Source: a virus. From it: a stretch of DNA of 44,918 bases. Numbering within the stretch: the stretch's first letter is position 1; the number at the start of each line of letters is the position of its first letter. The notes beneath the pieces are model-generated. The model was not told where the DNA came from, made no database searches, and worked only from the letters and a program-made list of their open reading frames with translations. Where the stretch lies: positions 1 to 44,918 of the IMG/VR virus record IMGVR_UViG_3300042503_000397; one strand, given 5' to 3'. A program made the translations under genes and the position numbers. Positions 6,598 through 42,347 of this stretch are shown here, in pieces.

Positions 6598-7944
6598 TCA
6601 CCCGCCGTAACGCTTCGCCAGTCTGGCCTGGTAGACACGTTCCGCCCATCCGCGCTTGTAGCCGCGTTGCTGCGCTAGCTCGCGCAGGTCGTCGAGGGAC
6701 TGAGCCGTGCCTTGCTCGCGGCGCTTGGCCCGCATGGCCACTTCCACCAACTCCCCATCAACCTGCTGCAGCTCGCGTGCCTCTGGTGCAAAGCGATGCC
6801 CGCACTCGCCGCATTGCTTGGCCTGGCTGGCCATGGCGGCAAAGCAGCTGGGGCATACCTTGACGCTGGGTGCTGCCTCGCGGTCGCGCTTTTTAAGGCC
6901 ATCTAGGGTCCACTCACGCGGCTCTAGGTGATGGCCAAGCCGGAGCGTATTGCCGACGTGGTCAAGCACCACTGCAGCAGTCTTGCCCGGTGATGGCCGC
7001 AGGCACCGACCGATCATCTGCAAATGCAGGCTGGTGGATGCAGTAGGCCTGAGCAGGATGCAGCCGCCGACTGACGGGACATCGACGCCCTCACCAATTA
7101 GTGCGCAGCTGGTAAGCACCTTGATCCGGCCTATTGCCAGGTCAGCCAATAGCTGCCTTCTATTGGCCGCATCCATGCTGCCGTCAATACTTGCGGCTGG
7201 GATGCCGTTGCATTGGAACAGGGATGCCACTGCCTCCGCGTGGGCCACGCTGCAGCAAAACGCGATCGCGGTCTGTCCGTCTAGATGCTTGCGGTAGTGG
7301 CCTAGGCAGTCGCCCATGATCGTGCCGACACGGTGCTCGGCCTCTTTGGTGTCGAAATCACCCATCCGCTTGCGTAGGCCGGTGGTATCAAAGCCCGGTG
7401 GCGCCAGCACCTTGGCCGCGGCGAGGTAGCCGTTATCCGTCAACCATTGCGCGCTGGGGCCTTCCACCATGGACTGGTAGTGCTCGCCAAGGCCACGGCC
7501 GTCGAGGCGGATCGGAGTTGCAGTGACGCCCAGCAGGTGGGCTGACTGGAAGTGCTCAAGCACCTTGGCCCAGGTGCCGGCATTGCTGTGGTGCGCCTCG
7601 TCAATGATGACAAGCTGAAAGAAATCACGCGGCAGCTTGTGCAGCCTGCGAGCAAGCGTCTGCACACTGGCAACCTGCACTGCTGCACTCAGGTCCATGG
7701 CGCGGTTGGCAGCAATCACACCATGCGGCATGGGCAAACTGCGGCACGATTGGTCCAGTAGCTCCTGCCGGTGAACGGCGATCAGCACGCGATTGCCCTT
7801 GCGTGCAGCGGATTGGGCAATGTGGCTGAAAATCACCGTCTTGCCGCCACCAGTAGGCAGCACTGCCATCACCTTGCGGTGGCCTAGTTGGTATTGCAGG
7901 CGGATGGCGGTGATCAGCTGTTGCTGGTATGGGCGCAGGTTCAC
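6598..7944 (-). CDS. RadD-like superfamily 2 DNA helicase with C-terminal zinc ribbon
   Basis: A 448-aa protein starting at GTG 7944, which overlaps the stop of the methyltransferase fusion. Helicase motifs in order: RPYQQQLI (Q-like), PTGGGKT (Walker A, residues 30-36), IIDEAHHS (DEAH, 115-118), GVTATP, then the second RecA domain with SCALIGEGVDVP and LQMIGRCLRP (motif VI). The tail has CPSC...CGEC, a zinc ribbon. This matches RadD/YejH-like helicases, which help resolve recombination intermediates. It is shorter than E. coli RadD. It probably works with RecT, SSB and VRR-NUC. Confidence 0.85.
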   Translation of the reverse strand: MNLRPYQQQLITAIRLQYQLGHRKVMAVLPTGGGKTVIFSHIAQSAARKGNRVLIAVHRQELLDQSCRSLPMPHGVIAANRAMDLSAAVQVASVQTLARRLHKLPRDFFQLVIIDEAHHSNAGTWAKVLEHFQSAHLLGVTATPIRLDGRGLGEHYQSMVEGPSAQWLTDNGYLAAAKVLAPPGFDTTGLRKRMGDFDTKEAEHRVGTIMGDCLGHYRKHLDGQTAIAFCCSVAHAEAVASLFQCNGIPAASIDGSMDAANRRQLLADLAIGRIKVLTSCALIGEGVDVPSVGGCILLRPTASTSLHLQMIGRCLRPSPGKTAAVVLDHVGNTLRLGHHLEPREWTLDGLKKRDREAAPSVKVCPSCFAAMASQAKQCGECGHRFAPEARELQQVDGELVEVAMRAKRREQGTAQSLDDLRELAQQRGYKRGWAERVYQARLAKRYGG

Positions 7945-10199
7945 ACCAGTTCCCCCTGCTTATGTGACTCGACCATGGCAAGGTTTTTGGCTGCGCAGTT
8001 GAAATACGAAGGCTTCAGCTCAAAGCCAACAAACCGGCGCTGCATCTGCAGGCTGACGTAGCCCTCGCTGCCGATGCCGGCGAATGGGCTAAGCACCAGA
8101 TCGCCAGGGTTGCTCCATAGTTGCAAGCCGCGGCGGATCACCTCCAGTTGCAGCGGGCAGATGTGACGCTCATCCTCATTGGCGCGGGCGCTGCGGTATT
8201 GCAGCGTGTCCGATGGGTTGATATCCATCCACACCGGGCTGGCGTAACGCTGCCAAATGTTGATGCTGTCTTTGATCGCATCGCCCGTTTTGGCCGGTGC
8301 ATTCTCGCCGGCAAACTCAGTGAATGGCCCCGCGCATGGCTCAGGGTTGTCGCCCAGCTTGCGCACTGTTACAAGGTAGTCAGGAATGCCTTGGCGGCTG
8401 AGCGCTGAATCCTTGCGCACTTGCTTATGCAGCAGGCCAATTGCCTTGGTGCGCTGCATTGCGGTGACCGGATCCTTCCAGATGCACACCTCGCTATGGA
8501 AGACAAAACCAGCAGCCTGGAAGATGCGCAGCATGTCACCGCGAAAGTCCTTCACGCCGATGAAACCATCGCGTTCCTTGCTGCTGGGCAGATTCATGCA
8601 ATGGAAGCTGATTAACCGGCCCGGCATCAGCACGCGATGCAGCTCCTTGGCTAGGTAGACGAAGTGATCGAAGAACTCCTGGTCGTTGCGACTGTTGCCC
8701 ATATCACGGTCGCTATTGCTGTAGGTGTACAGCGACGCGAATGGCGGGCTAAAGATGCTGTAATGGATGGAGTCGCTGTCGAGCTGTTTGATGCTCTCAA
8801 CGCAGTCGCCCATGTACAAATCCCAGTTGTCGCCGGTCTTGTGCTCAGTGATGTGCGGCGCCACTTGACGTTGGATCTTTTTGAGTTGTTCCATTGTTTG
8901 TTGCTTCATGATTTCAACCATTGATTGGGCCATCTGGATGCTGTCCGCCTCTTTGCGGCGGATGTTGTCGATCACGCGGCCTTCCGCCACGTCGTAGATG
9001 ATGTGAGCGTTGACGGGCTGCTCTTGGCCAAATCGCCAGCAACGGCGGATGGCTTGATAGAACGCCTCATAGCTGTGGGATAGGCCAACAAATGCGACGT
9101 TGTGGCACCGCTGGAAGTTGAGGCCAAAGCCAAAGATGCTCGGCTTGCTGACCAGTACGCGAATCTTGCCATCCTGAAAGTCGATGGCAGCTTGCCGCTT
9201 ATGGTCGTCGCTGTCGCTGCCTGACACCTCAACCGCTCCATCGATGGCGGCAGTCAGCGCCTTGGACTCATCGTTCAGATCGCACCACACCAGCCATTGC
9301 TCGGTGTTGCTGTTGGCAAGCTTGGCGGCAGCGGCCACACGGAGGGCGAGGGACGCCTTGCGCACTTGCCGTTGATCGCTCAGCGTACGAGCCTCCATGG
9401 CAAACAGCGCCATCTGGCCGTCATCCCCTGCAGTTGCCTCGCGTGGCGTCTCAACCGTGCAGTCACTGATCTGCAGCGCCGGCAGGATGAAGCTGCCATC
9501 GTCGTAGCCAAGGTCTGATGGCTTGCGGATCGTTACCGCCCAGCTGCAAACCCATTCCCAGAACTTGCTCTTGGCGTGTCCCTTGAGCCGCCACTTGGCA
9601 GTGTCGCCGCCGTCATGCACGAAGAACATGGCCAGCATCTCAGTGCGGGTCATGACGCCGATGAACTCAGCATGGTTGCCGAGCTCCATATGGTCGTTCG
9701 GTGCTGGCGTGGCGGAGCAGGCCAGCCGGTATGGAGTGAGGCTGAACGACTCGATGATCTGGTTGCGGATCTTGCCGGTGTATGCCTTGAGGATGCTGCT
9801 CTCATCAAGCACCACGCCATCGAAGGCGGATGGGTCGAAATGGCCGAGTTTTTCGTAGTTGGTGATCGTGATGCCGGGCTTGACCTCGGCTTGCGTTGCG
9901 GCAAAGCTGCAGGCAATGCCGAATTTGCCGCCCTCGCGCACGGTCTGGTGCGCAACCGCCAACGGCGCTAACACCAGCACATTGCCGCCGGTGTGCTGAT
10001 GCACTTGATGCGCCCATTCAAGCTGCATGGCGGTTTTACCCATGCCGCAATCGGCCCAGATGCAGAACCTGCCGACACGGCAGGCCATGGTCACAATGTC
10101 CCGCTGAAACGGAAATAGCGGTGCCGTGAACTGGTTAGGGTCAAAGCCTGCAGGAGCGCAGGCTGTGGATTTGGAGGCTAGGAAGTCTTTGTAGGTCAT
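7941..10199 (-). CDS. SNF2-like helicase fused to N4/N6 DNA methyltransferase
   Basis: A 752-aa two-domain protein. The first ~450 residues are an SF2/SNF2 ATPase: LFPFQRDIV, CGMGKTA (Walker A, 52-56), LDESS (DExx box, 132-135), ACSATPAPND, VLVSKPSIFGFGLNFQ and QAIRRCWRFGQEQ. Residues ~465-750 are a beta-class amino-methyltransferase: GDCVESI, SPPF (catalytic motif IV, about 484), a target-recognition region, then LSPFAGIGSEG (SAM motif I, about 705) and GFELKPSY. Motif IV before motif I marks class beta (N6-adenine or N4-cytosine). It likely methylates phage DNA, giving protection from host restriction. No restriction endonuclease motif is seen. Confidence 0.85.
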   Translation of the reverse strand: MTYKDFLASKSTACAPAGFDPNQFTAPLFPFQRDIVTMACRVGRFCIWADCGMGKTAMQLEWAHQVHQHTGGNVLVLAPLAVAHQTVREGGKFGIACSFAATQAEVKPGITITNYEKLGHFDPSAFDGVVLDESSILKAYTGKIRNQIIESFSLTPYRLACSATPAPNDHMELGNHAEFIGVMTRTEMLAMFFVHDGGDTAKWRLKGHAKSKFWEWVCSWAVTIRKPSDLGYDDGSFILPALQISDCTVETPREATAGDDGQMALFAMEARTLSDQRQVRKASLALRVAAAAKLANSNTEQWLVWCDLNDESKALTAAIDGAVEVSGSDSDDHKRQAAIDFQDGKIRVLVSKPSIFGFGLNFQRCHNVAFVGLSHSYEAFYQAIRRCWRFGQEQPVNAHIIYDVAEGRVIDNIRRKEADSIQMAQSMVEIMKQQTMEQLKKIQRQVAPHITEHKTGDNWDLYMGDCVESIKQLDSDSIHYSIFSPPFASLYTYSNSDRDMGNSRNDQEFFDHFVYLAKELHRVLMPGRLISFHCMNLPSSKERDGFIGVKDFRGDMLRIFQAAGFVFHSEVCIWKDPVTAMQRTKAIGLLHKQVRKDSALSRQGIPDYLVTVRKLGDNPEPCAGPFTEFAGENAPAKTGDAIKDSINIWQRYASPVWMDINPSDTLQYRSARANEDERHICPLQLEVIRRGLQLWSNPGDLVLSPFAGIGSEGYVSLQMQRRFVGFELKPSYFNCAAKNLAMVESHKQGELV

Positions 10200-13553: not shown

Positions 13554-13701
13554 CTGCATGACCCAGGCATTGGCTTACGCCCATGCCATCCGCGACAACG
13601 CACAGGACGACAGCCAGCCGATCCCTCTCGAGCTCGTCGGTTCGTTTCAAGTTGATTGCGACGCCATCATCAACGCCTTATCCGAAGCTGCTGCACAATG
13701 A
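13489..13701 (+). CDS. Hypothetical 70-aa protein upstream of the clamp gene
   Basis: ATG at 13489 gives MSLQDSIIIPAKQSPVINRL and a 70-aa helical protein ending INALSEAAAQ, whose TGA overlaps the DnaN start (ATGA). It overlaps the RHH gene in another reading frame. The coupling with dnaN suggests a replication-linked role. No family recognised. Confidence 0.55.
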   Translation: MSLQDSIIIPAKQSPVINRLHDCMTQALAYAHAIRDNAQDDSQPIPLELVGSFQVDCDAIINALSEAAAQ

Positions 13702-14744
13702 AATTCACCTGCTCACAGGCCGACCTGTCCCATGCCCTCCGCGCCGTATCCCGCGCTGTCGGCACCGGACGCTCTGGTCATCCGATTCTTGCTGGCGTGC
13801 TCCTTGCTGCTGATGCCGGCGCCGTACGCATCACCGCATACGACCTTGACCTTGGCATCAGCACCGCCATCACTGCTGCCGTAGACACCGTTGGCGCTTG
13901 CGTGGTGCCCCATCGGCTGCTAGCGGACATCACAGGCCGACTGGACGCCTCTGAGGCGCTGTCGCTGGCCGCGGACGGTACGCGCGTCACGCTGACCGCT
14001 GCAGGCGGCTCCTACAGCCTCTCCGTGGCCTCTGCGGAGGATTTCCCTGCATTGCCGGTGGTGGATGCTGCTGCAGGCGCTGCTGTGGACCTCACAGCGC
14101 CATTGGCAGCCGTATTGCCTGCTGCTGCCACCGATGCGTCCAAGCAGCTGCTGACCGGCGTGCATGTCACCATCGCAAGCGGCGCCCTGCGTCTTGAGGC
14201 CACAGACGGTCATCGCCTTGCCGTGCGTACCGCCGACACCGATGCCGCAGATCTTGACCTCGTGCTACCCGCTCGCACCCTGCAGCAGATCCGCCAGCCG
14301 GCCACCATCACCGCAGACAAGCATCAAGCCGCTATCGCCCTTGTTGATGGCACCATGATCGTCTCGCGGTTGCTGGATGGCACCTACCCCAACGTGCAAG
14401 CGCTGGTGCCCGCCAGCTACGAGCACACGGCTACCGTTAGCCGCCTTGCCATGCTGGCTGCACTTGAGCGCATAGCCGTCATCGCCGACAGCCACAACAG
14501 CGTCGTCAAGCTCACCGCCAAGGCCAAGCGCCTCACCATCGCCGCCGAAGCCGAAGCCAACAGCGGCTCAGAGTCCATTGCCATGGATGGCACGCTGCCC
14601 ACGCTTGCCTTCAACGTGCATTACCTCATCGATGCCTTTAAGCATCTAGACGGTGATACTGCTACCATCAGCGGCAACACCTCAACTACTCCTGTAGTAT
14701 TTGAGCCTGGCCTTACACTGGTAATGCCAGTTCAGGTACGCTGA
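13698..14744 (+). CDS. dnaN: DNA polymerase III beta subunit-like sliding clamp
   Basis: A 348-aa protein. I choose the ATG at 13698 (MKFTCSQADLSHALRAVSRAV) because it overlaps the upstream stop and gives the normal DnaN start. It shows the bacterial clamp pattern in three similar domains: HPILAGVLLAADAGAVRITAYD in domain I, LLTGVHVTIASGALRLEATDGHRLAVR in domain II, and DGTYPNVQALVP followed by VFEPGLTLVMPVQVR at the C-terminal end. Length is close to bacterial DnaN (about 366). It should encircle DNA and tether the polymerase. No polymerase gene is visible, so it probably engages the host replicase. Confidence 0.9.
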   Translation: MKFTCSQADLSHALRAVSRAVGTGRSGHPILAGVLLAADAGAVRITAYDLDLGISTAITAAVDTVGACVVPHRLLADITGRLDASEALSLAADGTRVTLTAAGGSYSLSVASAEDFPALPVVDAAAGAAVDLTAPLAAVLPAAATDASKQLLTGVHVTIASGALRLEATDGHRLAVRTADTDAADLDLVLPARTLQQIRQPATITADKHQAAIALVDGTMIVSRLLDGTYPNVQALVPASYEHTATVSRLAMLAALERIAVIADSHNSVVKLTAKAKRLTIAAEAEANSGSESIAMDGTLPTLAFNVHYLIDAFKHLDGDTATISGNTSTTPVVFEPGLTLVMPVQVR

Positions 14745-28315: not shown

Positions 28316-28656
28316 TGGCTACCTTCCCCAACTACAAGCCGACATATTCGGCCACCAAAAGCAGCCAGCCAAAGATTCGCACCACGCAATTTGGCGACGG
28401 TTACCAGCAGCGCATCACTTTTGGCCTCAATCAAAACCCGAAAGAATGGCGGCTTACATTTAGCGTCAGTGACGACGACGCCAACATCATCGAAGCGTTC
28501 CTAGATGCACGGGCTGCAGATGCGGCATCGTTTGACTGGACGCCACCAGGCGAAGCCACAAGCTACAAATGGATTTGCCCTAACTGGACCCGCGAGTTAT
28601 TTGAATTTGAGCGCAGCAAAATTGACGTGACCTTCATGCAGGTATTTGAACCGTGA
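28315..28656 (+). CDS. Minor tail protein M-like
   Basis: A 113-aa protein of the phage minor tail protein (lambda M) family. KIRTTQFGDGYQQRITFGLN at residues 18-37 is the diagnostic motif, followed by WRLTFSVSDDDANIIEAFLD, FDWTPPGEATSYKWICPNWT and [12 protein letters not shown]. It is the first gene of the lambda-like tail tip set M-L-K-I-J and overlaps the tape measure stop. Confidence 0.85.
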   Translation: MATFPNYKPTYSATKSSQPKIRTTQFGDGYQQRITFGLNQNPKEWRLTFSVSDDDANIIEAFLDARAADAASFDWTPPGEATSYKWICPNWTRELFEFERSKIDVTFMQVFEP

Positions 28657-29333
28657 CCGTACCTGTTTCCGCGCTGCAAGAAATTGCCCCCGGCGCGGTC
28701 ATCGAGTTATTCGAGCTGGAGCTGAACGTGACGCAGCACGGCGTAGCGGACATTTACCGCTTCCACGCTGGCACCAGCCTGAACAACAACGGCGCGCTGA
28801 GATGGGCCGGTAATGAGTACCTGCGCTTCCCGATCGAGGCCGAGGGCTTCGAGTACAGCGGCAACGGCCAACTGCCACGGCCGAAGGTGCGGGTGAGCAA
28901 CATCATGGGCACCATCACAGCGCTGTTGCTCAGCCTGCCGGATGGACTGGAGGGCGCGAAGCTGACGCGGATCCGCACGCTGGCCCGCTACATCGACGGC
29001 GCCAATTTCCCCGGCGGCACCAACCCCTACGGCACGCCAGACCCGACCGCGGAGTTTCCGCGTGAGATCTACTACGTGGACCGGAAGGTGGCAGAGACGC
29101 GGGACGTGGTGGAGTTCGAGCTCGCGGCATCGTTCGACCTGGCCGGCGTGCGGGCACCCAAGCGGCAGTGCATCGCGAACATCTGCCAGTGGGTCTACAA
29201 GTCGGCGGAGTGCGGTTACACCGGTGGGCTACCCACCTGCGAGAAGACGCTCGATGCCTGCAAGGCCCACTTCGGCGCGACCGCTGAGCTGCCGTACGGA
29301 AGCTACCCCGGTGTGGGTACCTATTTCGCATGA
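28653..29333 (+). CDS. Minor tail protein L-like (cysteine-rich tail tip)
   Basis: A 226-aa protein starting at GTG 28653 and resembling lambda gp[81 protein letters not shown], and a C-terminal region with spaced Cys residues ([20 protein letters not shown] then CEKTLDAC). Lambda gpL-type proteins bind an iron-sulfur cluster through such cysteines. From this gene on, base composition is visibly more GC-rich than upstream. Confidence 0.85.
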
Positions 29334-30055
29334 CCATGACCTGGCGCACCGCAGCACTCGATCACGCCAAGGCCGAGGATCCCCGCGAGGCCTGTGGCCT
29401 GCTGGTGGTGGTCAAGGGCCGCGAGCGGTACTGGCCGTGCCAGAACCTCTCCACCGGCACCGATCAGTTCATCCTCAACCCGGATGACTACGCCGCGGCA
29501 GAAGACGCAGGTGAGATTGTGGCCGTGGTGCATAGCCACCCGGTCACCCCGCCACAGCCCAGCGGGCCGGATCTGGTCGCGTGTGAGAAGAGCGGGCTGC
29601 CCTGGCACATCGTCAACCCGAAGACCGAAGCATGGGGCAGCTGCGAGCCTTCGGGGTACAAAGCGCCGCTGATCGGCCGTGAATGGGCGTGGGGCGTCAC
29701 CGACTGCTGGACGCTGGCGCGAGACTGGTGGCAGGCGCAGGGCCTGCAGCTGCCCGACTGGGAGCGTCCGCTGACCCCGCAGGATTTTGAGGCGGCGCCG
29801 ATGTTCGATGGCTGCTGGAAGGCCGCAGGCTTCCGCGAGCTGGACGATGAGGATGAGCTGCAGGTGGGTGATGCGCTGCTGATGAGCATCAGCGGGCCGG
29901 GCTTGAATCATGTCGGTGTCTACATCGGCGACGGCCTGGTGCTGCATCACATCCGCGGCAGGCTGAGCAGCCGCGACCTCTATGGCGGGTGGCTGCAGAA
30001 GTGCACGGGCCGGCGGTTACGCCATCCCGAGTTCACTACGATGGGTGGAGGCTGA
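29330..30055 (+). CDS. Tail tip peptidase K-like (JAMM plus NlpC/P60)
   Basis: A 241-aa two-domain protein. The N-terminal JAB/MPN domain has [11 protein letters not shown] and an intact zinc motif [14 protein letters not shown]. The C-terminal NlpC/P60 domain begins near residue 120 with the catalytic Cys in [13 protein letters not shown] and the His in [13 protein letters not shown]. In lambda, K-type proteins help build the tail tip and may open cell-wall peptide bonds on entry. Both domains look active. Confidence 0.88.
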
Positions 30056-30063
30056 GCGAGGCC

Positions 30064-30675
30064 ATGCTGCGCAAGATCCGGGTCTATGGGCGGCTGGCAA
30101 AGTTCCTCGGCCGGCGCGTGTTCCGCGCGGAGGTGGCAACCGCTGCTGAGGCGGTGCGATTCCTGCTGGCCAACTTCCCGCAGCTGGAGCGCCACATGGT
30201 TGACCAGCACTATCGGGTAAGCGTCGGCGGTTATGACCTCGAGGAGAGCGAGCTGCAGGATCCAGCAGGCCAGCAGCAGATCAAGATCGTGCCGGTGCTT
30301 GCCGGTGCTGGCAGTGCCGCAGGTCGAATCATTCTGGGTGTGGGCTTAATTGCCGCTGCTTTTCTTACAGGTGGCGCAACTATTGGCCTGCTAGGCCTTG
30401 CGGCTCCTGTTGCTGTTAGCACTGTGCTTGCCGGTATCGGCGCCACTTTGGTGCTCGGCGGCGTAGCGCAGCTGCTCACGCCTGTGCCGAAGATCGGCCC
30501 CACACCAAACGCCACTGGGTCCAACACCGACCAAGACCCGCGCAAGTCCTACAGCTTCTCCGGCATCCAGCAGACCAGCCGCCAGGGCGTGCCCGTGCCC
30601 GTCGTCTACGGCGAGACGCTGGTGGGCTCGGTGATCATCTCGGCCGGCGTTGACACCGTGCAGGTGGCGGGATGA
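30064..30675 (+). CDS. Tail assembly protein I-like
   Basis: A 203-aa protein. ATG at 30064 (MLRKIRVYGRLAKFLGRRVF) fits the lambda I family. AEAVRFLLANFPQLERHMVD and YRVSVGGYDL follow, then a glycine-rich hydrophobic centre (IILGVGLIAAAFLTGGATIG, GLAAPVAVSTVLAGIGATLV) and the end GVPVPVVYGETLVGSVIISA. The central stretch, about 30325-30450, looks less GC-rich than its surroundings, hinting at a recombination junction. It may act as a chaperone for tip assembly. Confidence 0.83.
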   Translation: MLRKIRVYGRLAKFLGRRVFRAEVATAAEAVRFLLANFPQLERHMVDQHYRVSVGGYDLEESELQDPAGQQQIKIVPVLAGAGSAAGRIILGVGLIAAAFLTGGATIGLLGLAAPVAVSTVLAGIGATLVLGGVAQLLTPVPKIGPTPNATGSNTDQDPRKSYSFSGIQQTSRQGVPVPVVYGETLVGSVIISAGVDTVQVAG

Positions 30676-33600
30676 GCAGGATCTTCGGCGCAGGCGGTGG
30701 CGGCGGTGGCGGTTGCTTCCTGGGGCACACGCTGATCCGAGTGCCCGATGGGCAGCGACGCATTGATGAGCTGCAGCCGGGTGATGTGGTGCTCAGCTTC
30801 GATGATCAGGGTTCGGTCCATCAAGCCAAGATCCTCAAGGTTCACGTCCACGAAAACGAGCGGGTCAACCGCTACCGCCTGTGGGGCGGCGCCGTGCTGG
30901 ACGCCACGCCAAACCACTGGGTACTCAACCAGTTCAACGCCTTCGTTGAAATCGACACCCTGGGCGTAGACGATTGCCTGGTGGATGAGAACGGCCATCT
31001 GCGGCCGATTGTGGACCGTGCCCAGCTCTGCCATGGCACTGTCTACAACCTGACCGTTGAAGGGCATCACACCTTCATCGCTGGCGGGATTCGCGTTCAC
31101 AACGCCGGTCTCGGCCTAGGCGCAATTGCAGGTGCTGGCGGCTTTGGAGCAGGGGGAGAGCGAGCAGTTGCCAAAGGTGTTGGCGGGGGGCAGCGCACCC
31201 CGACAGAAGCGGGCGACAACCTCAACAGCTCGCAGTATGCGCAGGTTTTGGACCTGATCAGCGAAGGCGAGATCGCGGGCCTGAAAAACGGCCTGCAATC
31301 AATCTTCCTGAACAACACGCCGCTGCAGAACGCCAACGGCTCGCTCAACTTTCAGAACGTCACCGTCTACACCCGCAACGGCACGCAGGATCAGTCCTAC
31401 ATCCCCGGATCGGCTGAAATCGAGGACGAGAAGCCGGTGGGCGTGCAGGTGTCGCAAGGCACGCCGATCATCCGCACGATCACCGACGCGAATGTGGACG
31501 CGGCGCGGATCACCATCACAGTGCCGCAGCTGCAAGAGTTCACGAACGAAGGCGACATCAATGGCGCAAGCGTGCAGCTGCAGATTGCCGTGCAGTACGG
31601 CGGCGGCGGCTACACCACGGTGATCGATGACACGATCGCCGGCCGCACCGCTGACGCCTATCAGCGCGACTACCTGGTGGGGCTGAGCAGCACCCCGGCA
31701 GACATCCGCGTGACCAGGATCACGGCCGACAGCGGCAGCGCCAAGCTGGCCAACGCTTTCACCTGGTCCACCTACACCGAGATCACCTACGCGAAGCTTC
31801 GCTACCCCAACAGCGCACTGGTCAGCCTGCGGGTGGACGCTGAGCAGTTCTCGAGCATCCCATCACGGTCGTATCTGATTCGTGGCATCAAGGTGCGAAT
31901 CCCGTCCAATGCGACGGTGGACACGACCAACGGCCGGCTGATCTACTCAGGCATCTGGAACGGCAGTTTCGGCGCGGCGCAGTGGTGCTCCGATCCGGCG
32001 TGGATCCTGTGGGACCTGCTGACCTCCACGCGCTACGGCTTCGGCGATCACGTCAAGGCAGCGCAGCTCGACAAGTGGGCGTTCTATGCCGCGAGCCAGT
32101 ACGCCTCCGCGCTGGTGCCTGACGGCTTCGGCGGCCAAGAGCCGCGCTTCTCCTGCAACATCAACATCCAGACGGCGGAAGAGGCTTACAAGCTGATCAA
32201 CGACATGTGCTCGGTATTCCGGGCCATGCCGTACTGGAGCACCGGCGCGCTGACGATCAGCCAAGACCGGCCGGCCGATTCGGCCTACCTGTTCACCCTG
32301 GCGAACGTGTCCGAGGAGGGCTTCAGCTACCAGGGCAGCAGCCGCAAGACCCGCCCGACCGTGGCTGTCGTGTCTTACTTGGACATTGGCAGATTTGATC
32401 AGGCCACTAGTAAGTGGATCGAAGGCAGTCGTGACATTGCCTACGAAGTGGTGGAGGACCAGTCCGCGATCGCGAAGCACGGCGCGGTGACCACGCAGAT
32501 CAGCGCCTTCGCCTGCACCTCCCGCGGCCAGGCCAGCAGGATCGGGGAGTGGCTTCTGTACTCGGAGCAGTATGAAGGCGTGGTGGTCAGCTTCACCGCA
32601 TCGATCGATGCCGGCGTGGTGGTGCGGCCTGGGCAGATCATCGAGATCAGCGACCCGGTAAAGGCCGGCTCACGGCGCGGCGGCCGAATCACCACGGCCA
32701 CCACCACTGCAATCACGGTGGATGATGCCAGCGGGCTAGCAGCTGGTGCAGCCGCCACCCTCTCAGTGATCCTGCCCAATGGCACGGTGCAGAGCAGTGC
32801 GGTGACGGCAATCGCCGGCAACGTGGTCAGCCTGGCCACGCCGCTGGCCGCAGCGCCCAACGCAAACAGCGTGTGGCTCTACCAGACCTCGAACATCCAA
32901 ACCTCGACCTGGCGCGTTCTCAGCGTGCAGGAGCAGGACGGCGCGAAGTACGCGATCAGCGCACTGGCCTACAACGCCAGCAAGTACGACTACATCGAGC
33001 GTGGCGCGGCGCTGCAGCCGCGGGACATCACCGACCTCAACATCATTCCGGCGGCGCCCACCAACCTGCAGGCCGTCGAGACGCTCTATGAGCTGAACGG
33101 CCGCGCACTGGCCAAGCTAATCATCAGCTGGCAGCCGGTGGTTGGCGTCAATGAGTATCGGGTGCGCTGGCGGCCGCAAAACGGCAACTGGACCAGCACC
33201 ACACAGGCGCGGCCGGACTACGAGATTCTTGACACCGCGGCCGGCATTTATGAGGTGCAGGTCTACAGCCTGAACGCTGGCCTGCGGCAGTCAGTGGAGC
33301 CGGCCAAGCTGACGGTACAAGCCTTCGGCAAGACCGCACCACCCGAGAGCGTCACCGGCGTGTCTCTGATCCCGATCGACGGCGCCAGCGCCATCCTCAG
33401 CTGGGATCGCTCCCCCGAGCTCGACGTGGTGCTCGGCGGCAAGGTGCTGATCCGCCACAACGTGGCACTCACCGGTGCTGTCTGGGAGGAGAGTCAAGAG
33501 ATCGTGGCCGCTGCAGCCGGCAGCCAGACCCAGAAGCAGGTGCCGCTGCTTGAGGGCACCTATCTGGTGAAGTTCGAGGATGACGGCGGCCGCCGGTCAC

Positions 33601-34448
33601 TGGTGGCCACCAGCGTGATCGTGGACCTGCCGACGCCACAGCCGCGGCAGCTGGTGCAGACCTACGCGGAGGAGCTGGAGAGCCCGCCCTTCAACGGCAA
33701 CTACACCGACATGTTCTATGTCACCAGCCTGGCCGAAGCGGGCGGGGCTGGCGGCATCATGCTCAGCAGCGGGCTCGCGGTGGATGAGATGGCCACTGAT
33801 GGCAACTGGGACGCGCTGGCCTCGATCGACAGTGTGGGCGGCGTGCTGCCGGCCGGCGAATACGAGTTCGGATCTACCTATGCCTTCCCCGGCGTCTTTG
33901 ACTGCAACATGCGCCGGCGGCTGGTCACCCTGCCCTACATCCCCGGCGACTTCTGGGATGACCATTTCGAAGACATCGACACCTGGGACTTGATCGACGG
34001 CACCGGTGGCGATCGCGTGAACGCGCTCACCTATGTGCGCACCACGCAGGACGACCCCAGCGGCACCCCGACCTGGAGCGCCTGGCGCGAGTTCGCCAAT
34101 GCGATCGTGCGGGGCCGTGGCTTCCAGTTCAAGACGGTGGCCACCAGCACTGACCCGACCCAGAACATCCTCATCGAGGAGCTGGGCGCCGAGCTCGAGC
34201 TGCAACAGCGCACCGAGCAATCAGCGACGCTGACAAGCGGCGCGGGTGCGTATACGGTCACCTTCGCTAATGCCTTCTTTGATGCGCCCAGTGTCGGCGT
34301 GACGGGTTTCAACATGGCCACCGGCGACTACTTCGAAATCTCCTCTGTTACACGGACAGGGTTTGCAGTAACCTTTAAGAACAGCGCCGGCAGTGCCGTG
34401 AGCCGCCAGTTCACCTACACAGCCATCGGGTTCGGGAGGCAGATCTAA
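30672..34448 (+). CDS. Tail tip attachment protein J-like with N-terminal Hint domain
   Basis: A 1258-aa protein. After residue 14 (MSRIFGAGGGGGGG) lies a Hint/intein-like domain (15-144), then a Gly-rich linker (GAIAGAGGFGAGG) and the normal J start (TPTEAGDNLNSSQYAQVLDL, ISEGEIAGLKNGLQSIFLNN). The J body follows: ITVPQLQEFTNEGDINGASV, LVSLRVDAEQFSSIPSRSYL, VRPGQIIEISDPVKAG and Fn3-like domains (TNLQAVETLYELNGRALAKL). The last ~250 residues are beta-rich and likely bind the receptor. J forms the tip of the tail and determines host range. Confidence 0.9.
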   Translation: MSRIFGAGGGGGGGCFLGHTLIRVPDGQRRIDELQPGDVVLSFDDQGSVHQAKILKVHVHENERVNRYRLWGGAVLDATPNHWVLNQFNAFVEIDTLGVDDCLVDENGHLRPIVDRAQLCHGTVYNLTVEGHHTFIAGGIRVHNAGLGLGAIAGAGGFGAGGERAVAKGVGGGQRTPTEAGDNLNSSQYAQVLDLISEGEIAGLKNGLQSIFLNNTPLQNANGSLNFQNVTVYTRNGTQDQSYIPGSAEIEDEKPVGVQVSQGTPIIRTITDANVDAARITITVPQLQEFTNEGDINGASVQLQIAVQYGGGGYTTVIDDTIAGRTADAYQRDYLVGLSSTPADIRVTRITADSGSAKLANAFTWSTYTEITYAKLRYPNSALVSLRVDAEQFSSIPSRSYLIRGIKVRIPSNATVDTTNGRLIYSGIWNGSFGAAQWCSDPAWILWDLLTSTRYGFGDHVKAAQLDKWAFYAASQYASALVPDGFGGQEPRFSCNINIQTAEEAYKLINDMCSVFRAMPYWSTGALTISQDRPADSAYLFTLANVSEEGFSYQGSSRKTRPTVAVVSYLDIGRFDQATSKWIEGSRDIAYEVVEDQSAIAKHGAVTTQISAFACTSRGQASRIGEWLLYSEQYEGVVVSFTASIDAGVVVRPGQIIEISDPVKAGSRRGGRITTATTTAITVDDASGLAAGAAATLSVILPNGTVQSSAVTAIAGNVVSLATPLAAAPNANSVWLYQTSNIQTSTWRVLSVQEQDGAKYAISALAYNASKYDYIERGAALQPRDITDLNIIPAAPTNLQAVETLYELNGRALAKLIISWQPVVGVNEYRVRWRPQNGNWTSTTQARPDYEILDTAAGIYEVQVYSLNAGLRQSVEPAKLTVQAFGKTAPPESVTGVSLIPIDGASAILSWDRSPELDVVLGGKVLIRHNVALTGAVWEESQEIVAAAAGSQTQKQVPLLEGTYLVKFEDDGGRRSLVATSVIVDLPTPQPRQLVQTYAEELESPPFNGNYTDMFYVTSLAEAGGAGGIMLSSGLAVDEMATDGNWDALASIDSVGGVLPAGEYEFGSTYAFPGVFDCNMRRRLVTLPYIPGDFWDDHFEDIDTWDLIDGTGGDRVNALTYVRTTQDDPSGTPTWSAWREFANAIVRGRGFQFKTVATSTDPTQNILIEELGAELELQQRTEQSATLTSGAGAYTVTFANAFFDAPSVGVTGFNMATGDYFEISSVTRTGFAVTFKNSAGSAVSRQFTYTAIGFGRQI
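30714..31103 (+). other. Hint (intein-like) domain inside the J protein
   Basis: Residues 15-144 of J form a complete Hint module. It begins with Cys15 (CFLGHTLIRVPDG), has block A PGDVVLSFDD, block B TPNHWV with the T-x-x-H motif (79-82), and ends with the block F/G signature YNLTVEGHHTFIAGGIRVHN, His143-Asn144. The next residue is Ala145, not the Cys/Ser/Thr needed for canonical splicing. There is no homing endonuclease. This fits a bacterial intein-like (BIL) domain that may cleave itself or splice atypically. Confidence 0.88.
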
Positions 34449-41234: not shown

Positions 41235-41471
41235 ATGATTGTGGAGCTATCAGTAGAGGATCAACTACGGATAGAGGGGCAGGCACGAGCTGCCCTTGCA
41301 CATGATGACCCTAGCCAAGTGGCACATTTATGCGCGTCGCTGATTCGTCAAAATGCGTATCAATCCAAGCTAATCCAGCAAGCAACTGGTCATATTGCCA
41401 AACTAGAAATGGAGCAGTTTTTAGGCTGCTCCAAACCAAAGCGATGGTGGCAGCGATTACTGCGTCGCTAG
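41235..41471 (+). CDS. Hypothetical 78-aa helical protein
   Basis: Starts at ATG 41235 (MIVELSVEDQLRIEGQARAA), or at 41217 for six more residues, which would overlap the antisense start. It is helical (LAHDDPSQVAHLCASLIRQN, KLIQQATGHIAKLEMEQFLG) and ends basic (KPKRWWQRLLRR). It is the last rightward gene and overlaps the sigma factor gene tail to tail by 15 bases. Function unknown. Confidence 0.62.
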   Translation: MIVELSVEDQLRIEGQARAALAHDDPSQVAHLCASLIRQNAYQSKLIQQATGHIAKLEMEQFLGCSKPKRWWQRLLRR

Positions 41472-42347
41472 CGATGGCCGCAAAATTAAACTGAGTTTGC
41501 GTTGCGCGCGTTGCGCGCGTTGCCTGACGCGCTCTCTGCATACACCAAGATTGCGGCCAATTTCGGCATAGCTTTCTGGTGTTTCGCAGCCAATGCCATA
41601 GTTTCTACGTACAACATCCCTATCAAAGGGATCTAGGCGAAAAAAAGCCAGCTGCAGCTGCTCAACGCGCTCACAAATCTCTTCAGGGTTGTGGTCTTCA
41701 TCAATGCCGTACTCGTCGGCAATCATGTCTAGTATTGTGCTGCCATCTTCGGTGATCAGTGCATCTAGGCTTCGGTGTGGCCTGTTGCGCTCCATCAGCA
41801 TCAATAGCTGATCTGTGTCGATGTTAAGAATGTCTGCCACTTCGCGGGCGGTAGGAGTGCGGCCATTGGCTTGCGCAAACTCACGTTGCGCCTTGGCAGC
41901 GGCGTAGGTTTTCTCTAGTGCATGTTGCGGCATTCGAATCAACCGCTCCTTCGTATCAATGGCGCGGGTGATCGCTTGACGAATCCACCAATAGGCATAG
42001 GTAGAAAACTTGTAACCTTTGGTGCCGTCAAACATCTCCGCAGCACGATGCAGGCCCAACGCCCCTTCTTGGATCAAGTCCATTAGGTCCATGTTGTTGG
42101 ACTGCAGCCGGGTGACGTACCGCTTGGAGATATGGACCACCAACCGCAGGTTGCAATTGATGATCATGTCACGCGCGCGCATACCAACGCGGATCTCGCG
42201 CTGTTCTTGCTTGGTGCGCTCGCCTTTGGCGTCACGCAGCTCAAGGTATCTCCGCACTTGACGCGACAGTTGAATTTCTTGCTCAGCCGACAGCAATGGA
42301 TATCGGCCGATGGCGGTGAGGTACTGCTTGAACGAGTCGGGTGTCAT
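41457..42347 (-). CDS. Sigma-70 family RNA polymerase sigma factor, cyanobacterial type
   Basis: A 296-aa protein with all core regions. Region 1.2: DSFKQYLTAIGRYPLLSAEQ. Region 2: NCNLRLVVHISKRYVTRLQ and MDLIQEGALGLHRAAEMF, with 2.4 YKFSTYAYWWIRQAITRAID. Region 3: RPHRSLDA, with GRTPTAREVADIL. Region 4.2: SYAEIGRNLGVCRERVRQ. Region 1.1 is missing, as in group 2/3 factors. The sequence resembles cyanobacterial group 2 sigma factors. It could direct host polymerase to phage promoters. Its place at the end of the leftward block suggests middle or late expression. Confidence 0.92.
   Translation of the reverse strand: MTPDSFKQYLTAIGRYPLLSAEQEIQLSRQVRRYLELRDAKGERTKQEQREIRVGMRARDMIINCNLRLVVHISKRYVTRLQSNNMDLMDLIQEGALGLHRAAEMFDGTKGYKFSTYAYWWIRQAITRAIDTKERLIRMPQHALEKTYAAAKAQREFAQANGRTPTAREVADILNIDTDQLLMLMERNRPHRSLDALITEDGSTILDMIADEYGIDEDHNPEEICERVEQLQLAFFRLDPFDRDVVRRNYGIGCETPESYAEIGRNLGVCRERVRQRAQRAQRKLSLILRPSLATQ

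Follow-up and report, generated by a model that had tools for sequence, protein, structure and literature searches.

Why should a phage tail-tip protein begin with an intein-like Hint domain that lacks a splicing nucleophile, and what would such a domain do there? The question is raised by IMG/VR virus record IMGVR_UViG_3300042503_000397, whose whole analysed stretch of 44,918 nucleotides is referred to here as the window. The gene concerned (30672-34448, plus strand) encodes a 1258-residue tail-tip or host specificity protein of the lambda gpJ type with an N-terminal Hint cassette, as identified from its open reading frame and from HMM matches to phrog_31 (E = 5e-248), FNIII-A_GpJ and Phage-tail_3, while the match to lambda_TipJ (NF049904, E = 3.8e-141) falls under that model's strict lambda-specific cut-off. 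J proper, as delimited by lambda_TipJ, phrog_31 and FNIII-A_GpJ, begins at about residue 168, and from there the protein is an ordinary lambda-type J. Comparison with relatives places the J core that is common to Hint-less relatives at 31173-34445 (plus strand), and the nearest to this core is that of cyanophage MED4-117. Upstream, on the same strand, lie gene L (minor tail protein, 28653-29333; PF05100, 1.2e-47; TIGR01600, 7e-57), gene K (29330-30055, with JAB and NlpC/P60 domain matches) and gene I (tail assembly protein I or plug, 29989-30675; phrog_32, E = 3.7e-48), the 3′ end of which overlaps the J start codon (ATGA). This L-K-I-J gene order, together with the J homology, identifies the product as tail tip J of the lambda gpJ kind. 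The N terminus of J also lies at a break point: the hub, one chain in T5, is divided there into L, I and J in lambda (PMC10721106).

The Hint or BIL-type (bacterial intein-like) autoprocessing domain spans 130 residues, from Cys15 to Asn144 (30714-31103, plus strand). It is preceded by a 14-residue N-extein, MSRIFGAGGGGGGG (30672-30713, plus strand), and opens with Cys1 of the Hint (Cys15 in CFLGHT, 30714-30716, plus strand), which would form the N-terminal thioester. Block B, TPNH (Thr79-His82, 30906-30917, plus strand), stands within DATPNHW, and blocks F and G, VYNLTVEGHHTFIAGGIRVHN (residues 124-144, 31041-31103, plus strand), end in the His143-Asn144 pair that would cyclise and cut the C-terminal junction. 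The C-terminal end of the domain reads HHTFIAGGIRVHN and is followed at +1 by Ala145, instead of Cys, Ser or Thr, and then by GLGLGAIAGAGG. These 130 residues contain no homing endonuclease.

Profile matches to the region come from Hint (PF01079, E = 2.9e-7), from PT-HINT (PF07591, E = 1.5e-7 and 32.2 bits against the N-terminal fragment and 27.5 bits against the full protein, with a cut-off of 27.7) and from intein_Cterm (TIGR01443, 25.5 bits, over its cut-off of 15.6), and intein_Nterm (TIGR01445) matches weakly, under its cut-off. The AF2 model is a Hint fold in which 126 residues have a pLDDT of at least 90, with disordered flanks. By sequence, the PDB entry closest to the Hint is 2LWY, a BIL domain of C. 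thermocellum (E = 3.9e-14), which aligns structurally with Z = 20.2 and an rmsd of 1.5 across 132 residues; the top Foldseek match of the model is Tetrahymena BIL2 (6Y75, Z = 20.5). Ordinary inteins reach Z = 21.8 and Hedgehog 19.4, against about 20 for the two BIL structures; the fold alone does not separate BIL, intein and Hedgehog for the J Hint, and it is the residues that do. The HMMs, the AF2 model and hundreds of relatives rule out chance or artefact as the source of the signal. The preliminary description had proposed an intein-like, BIL-type domain without a +1 nucleophile on J, and the same lines of evidence, with 117 copies, bear this out; its boundaries were exact, with Cys15 starting at 30714 and Asn144 ending at 31103. 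Additional conserved histidines occur at positions 58, 60, 109 and 133 (J numbering), with His60 invariant in 41 diverse Hints, and Tetrahymena BIL2 is zinc-controlled through histidines (PMC8616854).

Conservation of the junctions is complete among 117 unique complete copies, all of which have Cys1 and the terminal His-Asn. The +1 residue is Ala in 95, Gly in 21 and Gln in 1, and Cys, Ser or Thr occurs there in none (0/117), which rules out a standard (class 1) intein. Length is held at 130-132 residues throughout, and Thr79, His82, Asn126, His143, Asn144 and the +2 Gly are invariant across the 41 diverse members. A median dN/dS of 0.13 between close copies (NG86) points to strong purifying selection on the Hint. 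No degenerate Hint-J copies were found, the partial matches being contig-end truncations or Hints of other proteins; a degraded relic is ruled out by the lack of any decayed copy, and the conservation of the junctions is no ascertainment artefact. In a single Hint-J contig (L144:4490-4540), the G-run just 5′ of Cys1 carries a frame change of one base, a sequencing error or slippage, which leaves the start ATG and the Hint in different frames.

The domain is widespread. A scan with the J Hint found at least 467 IMG/VR stretches encoding close relatives, and a profile scan of IMG/VR gave at least 582 confirmed matches. The N terminus of J is the site of the Hint in every complete J-type copy or locus inspected, proteobacterial-type phages included. 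Two large types of Hint-J can be told apart, a window-like type, in which +1 is Ala (AGLG), and a proteobacterial type, in which it is Gly (mostly GGHRxRxP). The Hints of the two types are about 50% identical; the single copy with +1 Gln is L205. The proteobacterial type also occurs in contigs of betaproteobacterial, Oxalobacter and Chloroflexi assemblies, and a close Hint-J copy lies in one cyanobacterial MAG contig. The relatives are metagenomic contigs; the domain is carried by many phages known only without cultivation, which are related both to phages that infect aquatic cyanobacteria and to prophages of proteobacteria. Among cultivated phages, Hint-J was not found in 50,697 GenBank records (tblastn, E 0.01), where the only matches were distant Hints belonging to helicases, a terminase and hypothetical proteins. 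Plasmid matches to the Hint fall mostly in calcium-binding and polymorphic-toxin-type proteins. Among 294 genomes of the Oxalobacter family, a strong match is confined to the Oxalobacter genome, and 20 others have much weaker ones, of which the best reaches E = 1e-14 and many fall within very large frames.

Within the window's own group the Hint is optional. When the nearest 80 J cores are taken with a query that excluded the Hint, near-duplicate contigs being kept in, 39 have the Hint, 39 are without it and 2 are cut, and J cores 90-94% identical to that of the window exist without a Hint. On a quick tree (LG+G4) of 143 J cores, the Hint has to change between presence and absence 13 times, and supported branches force at least 6 of these changes; gains and losses are indistinguishable. 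A cassette swap is visible between L138 and L042, where the flanks are mostly 88-97% identical in nucleotides and the Hint 75-86%. Genes I and K occur in all Hint-bearing and Hint-less loci with sufficient upstream DNA, and among K, I and L there is no partner gene peculiar to Hint-bearing phages, all three being found in both groups. Because it is an optional, recombining cassette, the Hint cannot be essential to J in this group.

Hint-less J begins with the motif [IV]xG[AS]G and has a Lys inside a Gly-rich stretch in 30 of 30 cases, and versions of the motif are also found in J of cultivated Halomonas, Burkholderia and Moraxella phages. One Hint-less relative (L083) begins MSRIVGAGGGGGGGKGGGGGG; in another (L089) the N terminus is longer and unusual (MSIHGGRIAGGPLVTGAGGGG) and may represent a scar or an extension of separate origin. 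In the window protein the motif stands on both sides of the Hint, first as I4-F-G-A-G8 in the N-extein (30681-30695, plus strand) and again as I152-A-G-A-G-G157 (31125-31142, plus strand), where it starts the Gly/Lys-rich segment found in Hint-less J. Across Hint-J the motif is present in 114 of the 117 unique N-exteins and behind the Hint in 115. The N-extein ends in Gly in 115 copies, and Lys is present in every C-flank (117/117), against only 4 of the final Gly runs of the N-extein; judged from these sequences, the full Lys-bearing J motif regularly sits only behind the Hint. The C-flank AGLGLG (+1 to +6, with +1 Ala and +2 Gly; 31104-31121, plus strand) is missing from Hint-less J and travels with the Hint, and among the 117 copies this flank is of the AGLG type in 86, AGIG in 8 and GGHR, the proteobacterial type, in 15. 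The two motif copies tend to co-vary, as in IQGASTGGG and IQGASTGGGG of L064 or KVKGSKG and RVKGSKG of L205, and their pairwise similarity was reached by 0 of 300 shuffles in a permutation test that leaves relatedness uncorrected. Three proteobacterial-type Hint-less relatives (L247, L249 and L250) have one motif copy each; Hint-less relatives of the +1 Gly type came from a separate search, in which few were found. The glycine tracts had been taken for exposed linkers, and a comparison with J proteins lacking the Hint had been proposed; that comparison reveals an optional cassette with a single motif in Hint-less J, and the tracts turn out to be more than linkers, namely J's own N-terminal motif, duplicated around the Hint.

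Self-processing of the J N terminus is the likeliest reading of this arrangement, because both junctions are fully conserved in the 117 copies and purifying selection is strong. In its specific form, to which we give a probability of roughly 0.6, the J Hint would be an A-type BIL-like domain that removes itself from the J N terminus after translation. Asn144 would cyclise and cut before Ala145, and the freed J would begin AGLGLGAIAGAGG, in effect Hint-less J plus a six-residue scar. Cys15 and Gly14 would form a thioester; hydrolysis would then release the N-extein peptide or, less often, the freed amine of Ala145 would rejoin it. Everything found at the N terminus of Hint-less J (IxGAGGGG-Lys-GGGG) sits downstream of Asn144 in Hint-J, and since the full motif lies behind the Hint, C-terminal cleavage would give J back the kind of N terminus seen in relatives without the Hint. 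True splicing would thus be unneeded, which would explain why the +1 nucleophile is missing throughout. Cleavage without ligation has been reported for the A type of BIL domain (PMC7765530). Maturation of J, during tail-tip assembly or on host contact, had been suggested earlier; the maturation itself is upheld as the likeliest reading by the junctions and the dN/dS, and nothing was found in favour of a host-contact trigger over processing after translation.

The cassette is exchanged by recombination between phages with and without the Hint, and a catalytically dead Hint would leave J blocked and then be lost, which would explain why no dead copy is seen. As phages can do without the cassette, the lack of dead copies suggests that a Hint left uncut is harmful to J. 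The invariance of Cys1 and the block B histidine further suggests that the N-terminal thioester is used as well, for hydrolysis, for rejoining or, least likely, for transfer to an amine. Two observations fit the self-removal model less well. Conservation of Cys1 and the block B histidine exceeds what C-terminal cleavage alone needs, and the N-extein keeps the J motif in nearly every copy, yet the model discards it. The N-terminal thioester probably matters in a way that the model does not fully explain, and part of the Hint conservation could be due to stability of the fold or shared ancestry.

Why the cassette is retained is a separate matter. One tentative answer, compatible with the self-removal model, is that this mini-intein-like element is a passenger, neutral or selfish, which persists by removing itself and brings the phage no benefit. 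The patchy presence and absence and the cassette swaps would fit such an element, and cleavage would leave a near-normal J N terminus. Without an endonuclease and with a fixed length, however, it has no known means of homing, and a homing element is ruled out on the same grounds. Distances between Hints correlate with those between J cores (r = 0.85), which indicates that Hint and J usually travel together and have long resided jointly, and in the window-like type the Hint is more conserved than the adjoining J core (mean distance 0.23 against 0.36); both speak against a passenger.

Splicing by a nucleophile-free route is doubtful, although several features would suit it. Here the freed Ala145 amine (Gly in other phages) would attack the Gly14-Cys15 thioester, and mature J would read MSRIFGAGGGGGGG-AGLGLGAIAGAGG..., with two motif copies. 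Cys1 in every copy, the block B Thr and His in all 41 diverse members, a small +1 residue (Ala or Gly) in 116 of 117 and the motif retained by the N-extein would all be expected, and some A-type BILs can splice by a different route (PMC5874633). However, cleaved products predominate for BIL domains without a +1 nucleophile (PMC7664689), and Hint-less J has one motif copy, so that ligation is not needed.

It is very unlikely that the Hint fold simply remains on J, uncleaved, as a globular ornament at its N terminus. Hypervariability of gpJ at the site of its N-terminal extensions is known (PMC13243795), but a mere ornament would not be expected to keep all catalytic residues at both junctions in 117 of 117 copies or to have the J motif repeated behind it. 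Equally speculative, by analogy with the isopeptide chemistry of Tetrahymena BIL2, is the idea that the Hint is kept for its thioester, with the Gly-ended N-extein passed to an amine that may belong to J itself, to a second J of the trimer or to a different tail protein, so that part of the phage population would have its tail tip covalently tagged or cross-linked. Least probable is a peptide ligase proper, in which the Gly14 thioester would go to a Lys or other amine (of J, another J protomer of the trimer or another tail protein) and so attach the N-extein or cross-link the tail tip: BIL2, first among the Foldseek matches, reportedly moves its N-extein to Lys and so makes Gly-Lys isopeptide bonds (PMC8616854), and the Gly-ended N-exteins and the Lys in every C-flank would fit, but Lys is equally constant in Hint-less J and so was not put there for the Hint, no Hint-specific partner exists among K, I and L, and the structural similarity to 6Y75 is no greater than that to ordinary inteins.

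Among characterized systems, the J Hint most resembles A-type BILs such as that of C. thermocellum (2LWY), with which it shares the Hint fold, Cys1, TxxH, the terminal His-Asn and a non-nucleophilic +1 residue, self-cleavage being predicted for the J domain. BIL domains are usually found in variable regions of non-conserved bacterial proteins. In contrast, the J Hint is fixed at the N terminus of a tail-tip protein that is conserved among phages, is present or absent as a cassette and has a motif of the host protein duplicated around it; for this fixed site in a conserved structural protein, a matter of context and not of chemistry, we call it BIL-like rather than a plain BIL member. Phage inteins of terminase, ribonucleotide reductase (RNR), helicase and dCTP deaminase likewise place a Hint fold in phage proteins. 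Those inteins excise themselves from enzymes; they usually have a +1 nucleophile and in many cases an endonuclease. The J Hint has neither, and it sits in the N-terminal Gly-rich segment of a structural protein, not at the conserved functional site typical of class 1 inteins. Hedgehog Hog-Hints have a sterol-recognition region after the Hint and lack C-terminal Asn cleavage. In J, His-Asn is present and no other domain lies between the Hint and J.

Pretoxin HINT (PF07591) is the best Pfam match, and its C-terminal cleavage releases the part downstream. In polymorphic toxins the HINT comes late, directly before the C-terminal toxin domain (PMC3482391), whereas the J Hint is N-terminal and would release the whole J protein; a polymorphic toxin is ruled out, with nothing toxin-like downstream of the Hint, only the tail-tip protein. 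BIL2 of Tetrahymena BUBL1 (6Y75, 6TMM) has ubiquitin-like exteins, unlike the 14-residue Gly-rich N-extein of J. The S74 domains of phage tail fibres and spikes also remove themselves from a phage tail protein (PMC7824862), but are unrelated, use Ser/Lys chemistry and form hexamers that aid folding.

The Hint/BIL type itself is already known, and its use as an optional, recombining tail-tip cassette is undescribed in the open-access literature searched, where we found no description of Hint or intein-like domains in J, an absence that is weak evidence. A study of cryoconite phages with 36 variable tail genes has no intein among those (PMC7468147). Provided that cleavage is confirmed, closely related phages that differ in the cassette would be a natural experiment on why J should process itself, with assembly timing, protection of the N terminus and ligation as candidate reasons. 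The arrangement also bears on how BIL domains without a splicing nucleophile persist: where the host protein's motif is doubled, cutting would suffice. As a practical matter, the family is a source of predicted self-cleaving tags of about 130 residues with Ala or Gly at +1.

Elsewhere the window encodes a sigma-70 factor with regions 1.2, 2, 3 and 4 (41457-42347, minus strand) and a homologue of the DNA polymerase III beta-clamp, DnaN, with all three clamp domains (13656-14744, plus strand). A helicase (ResIII/Helicase_C) and an N6/N4 DNA methylase are fused in one frame at 7941-10199 (minus strand), and a second helicase, at 6598-7944, adjoins this fusion.
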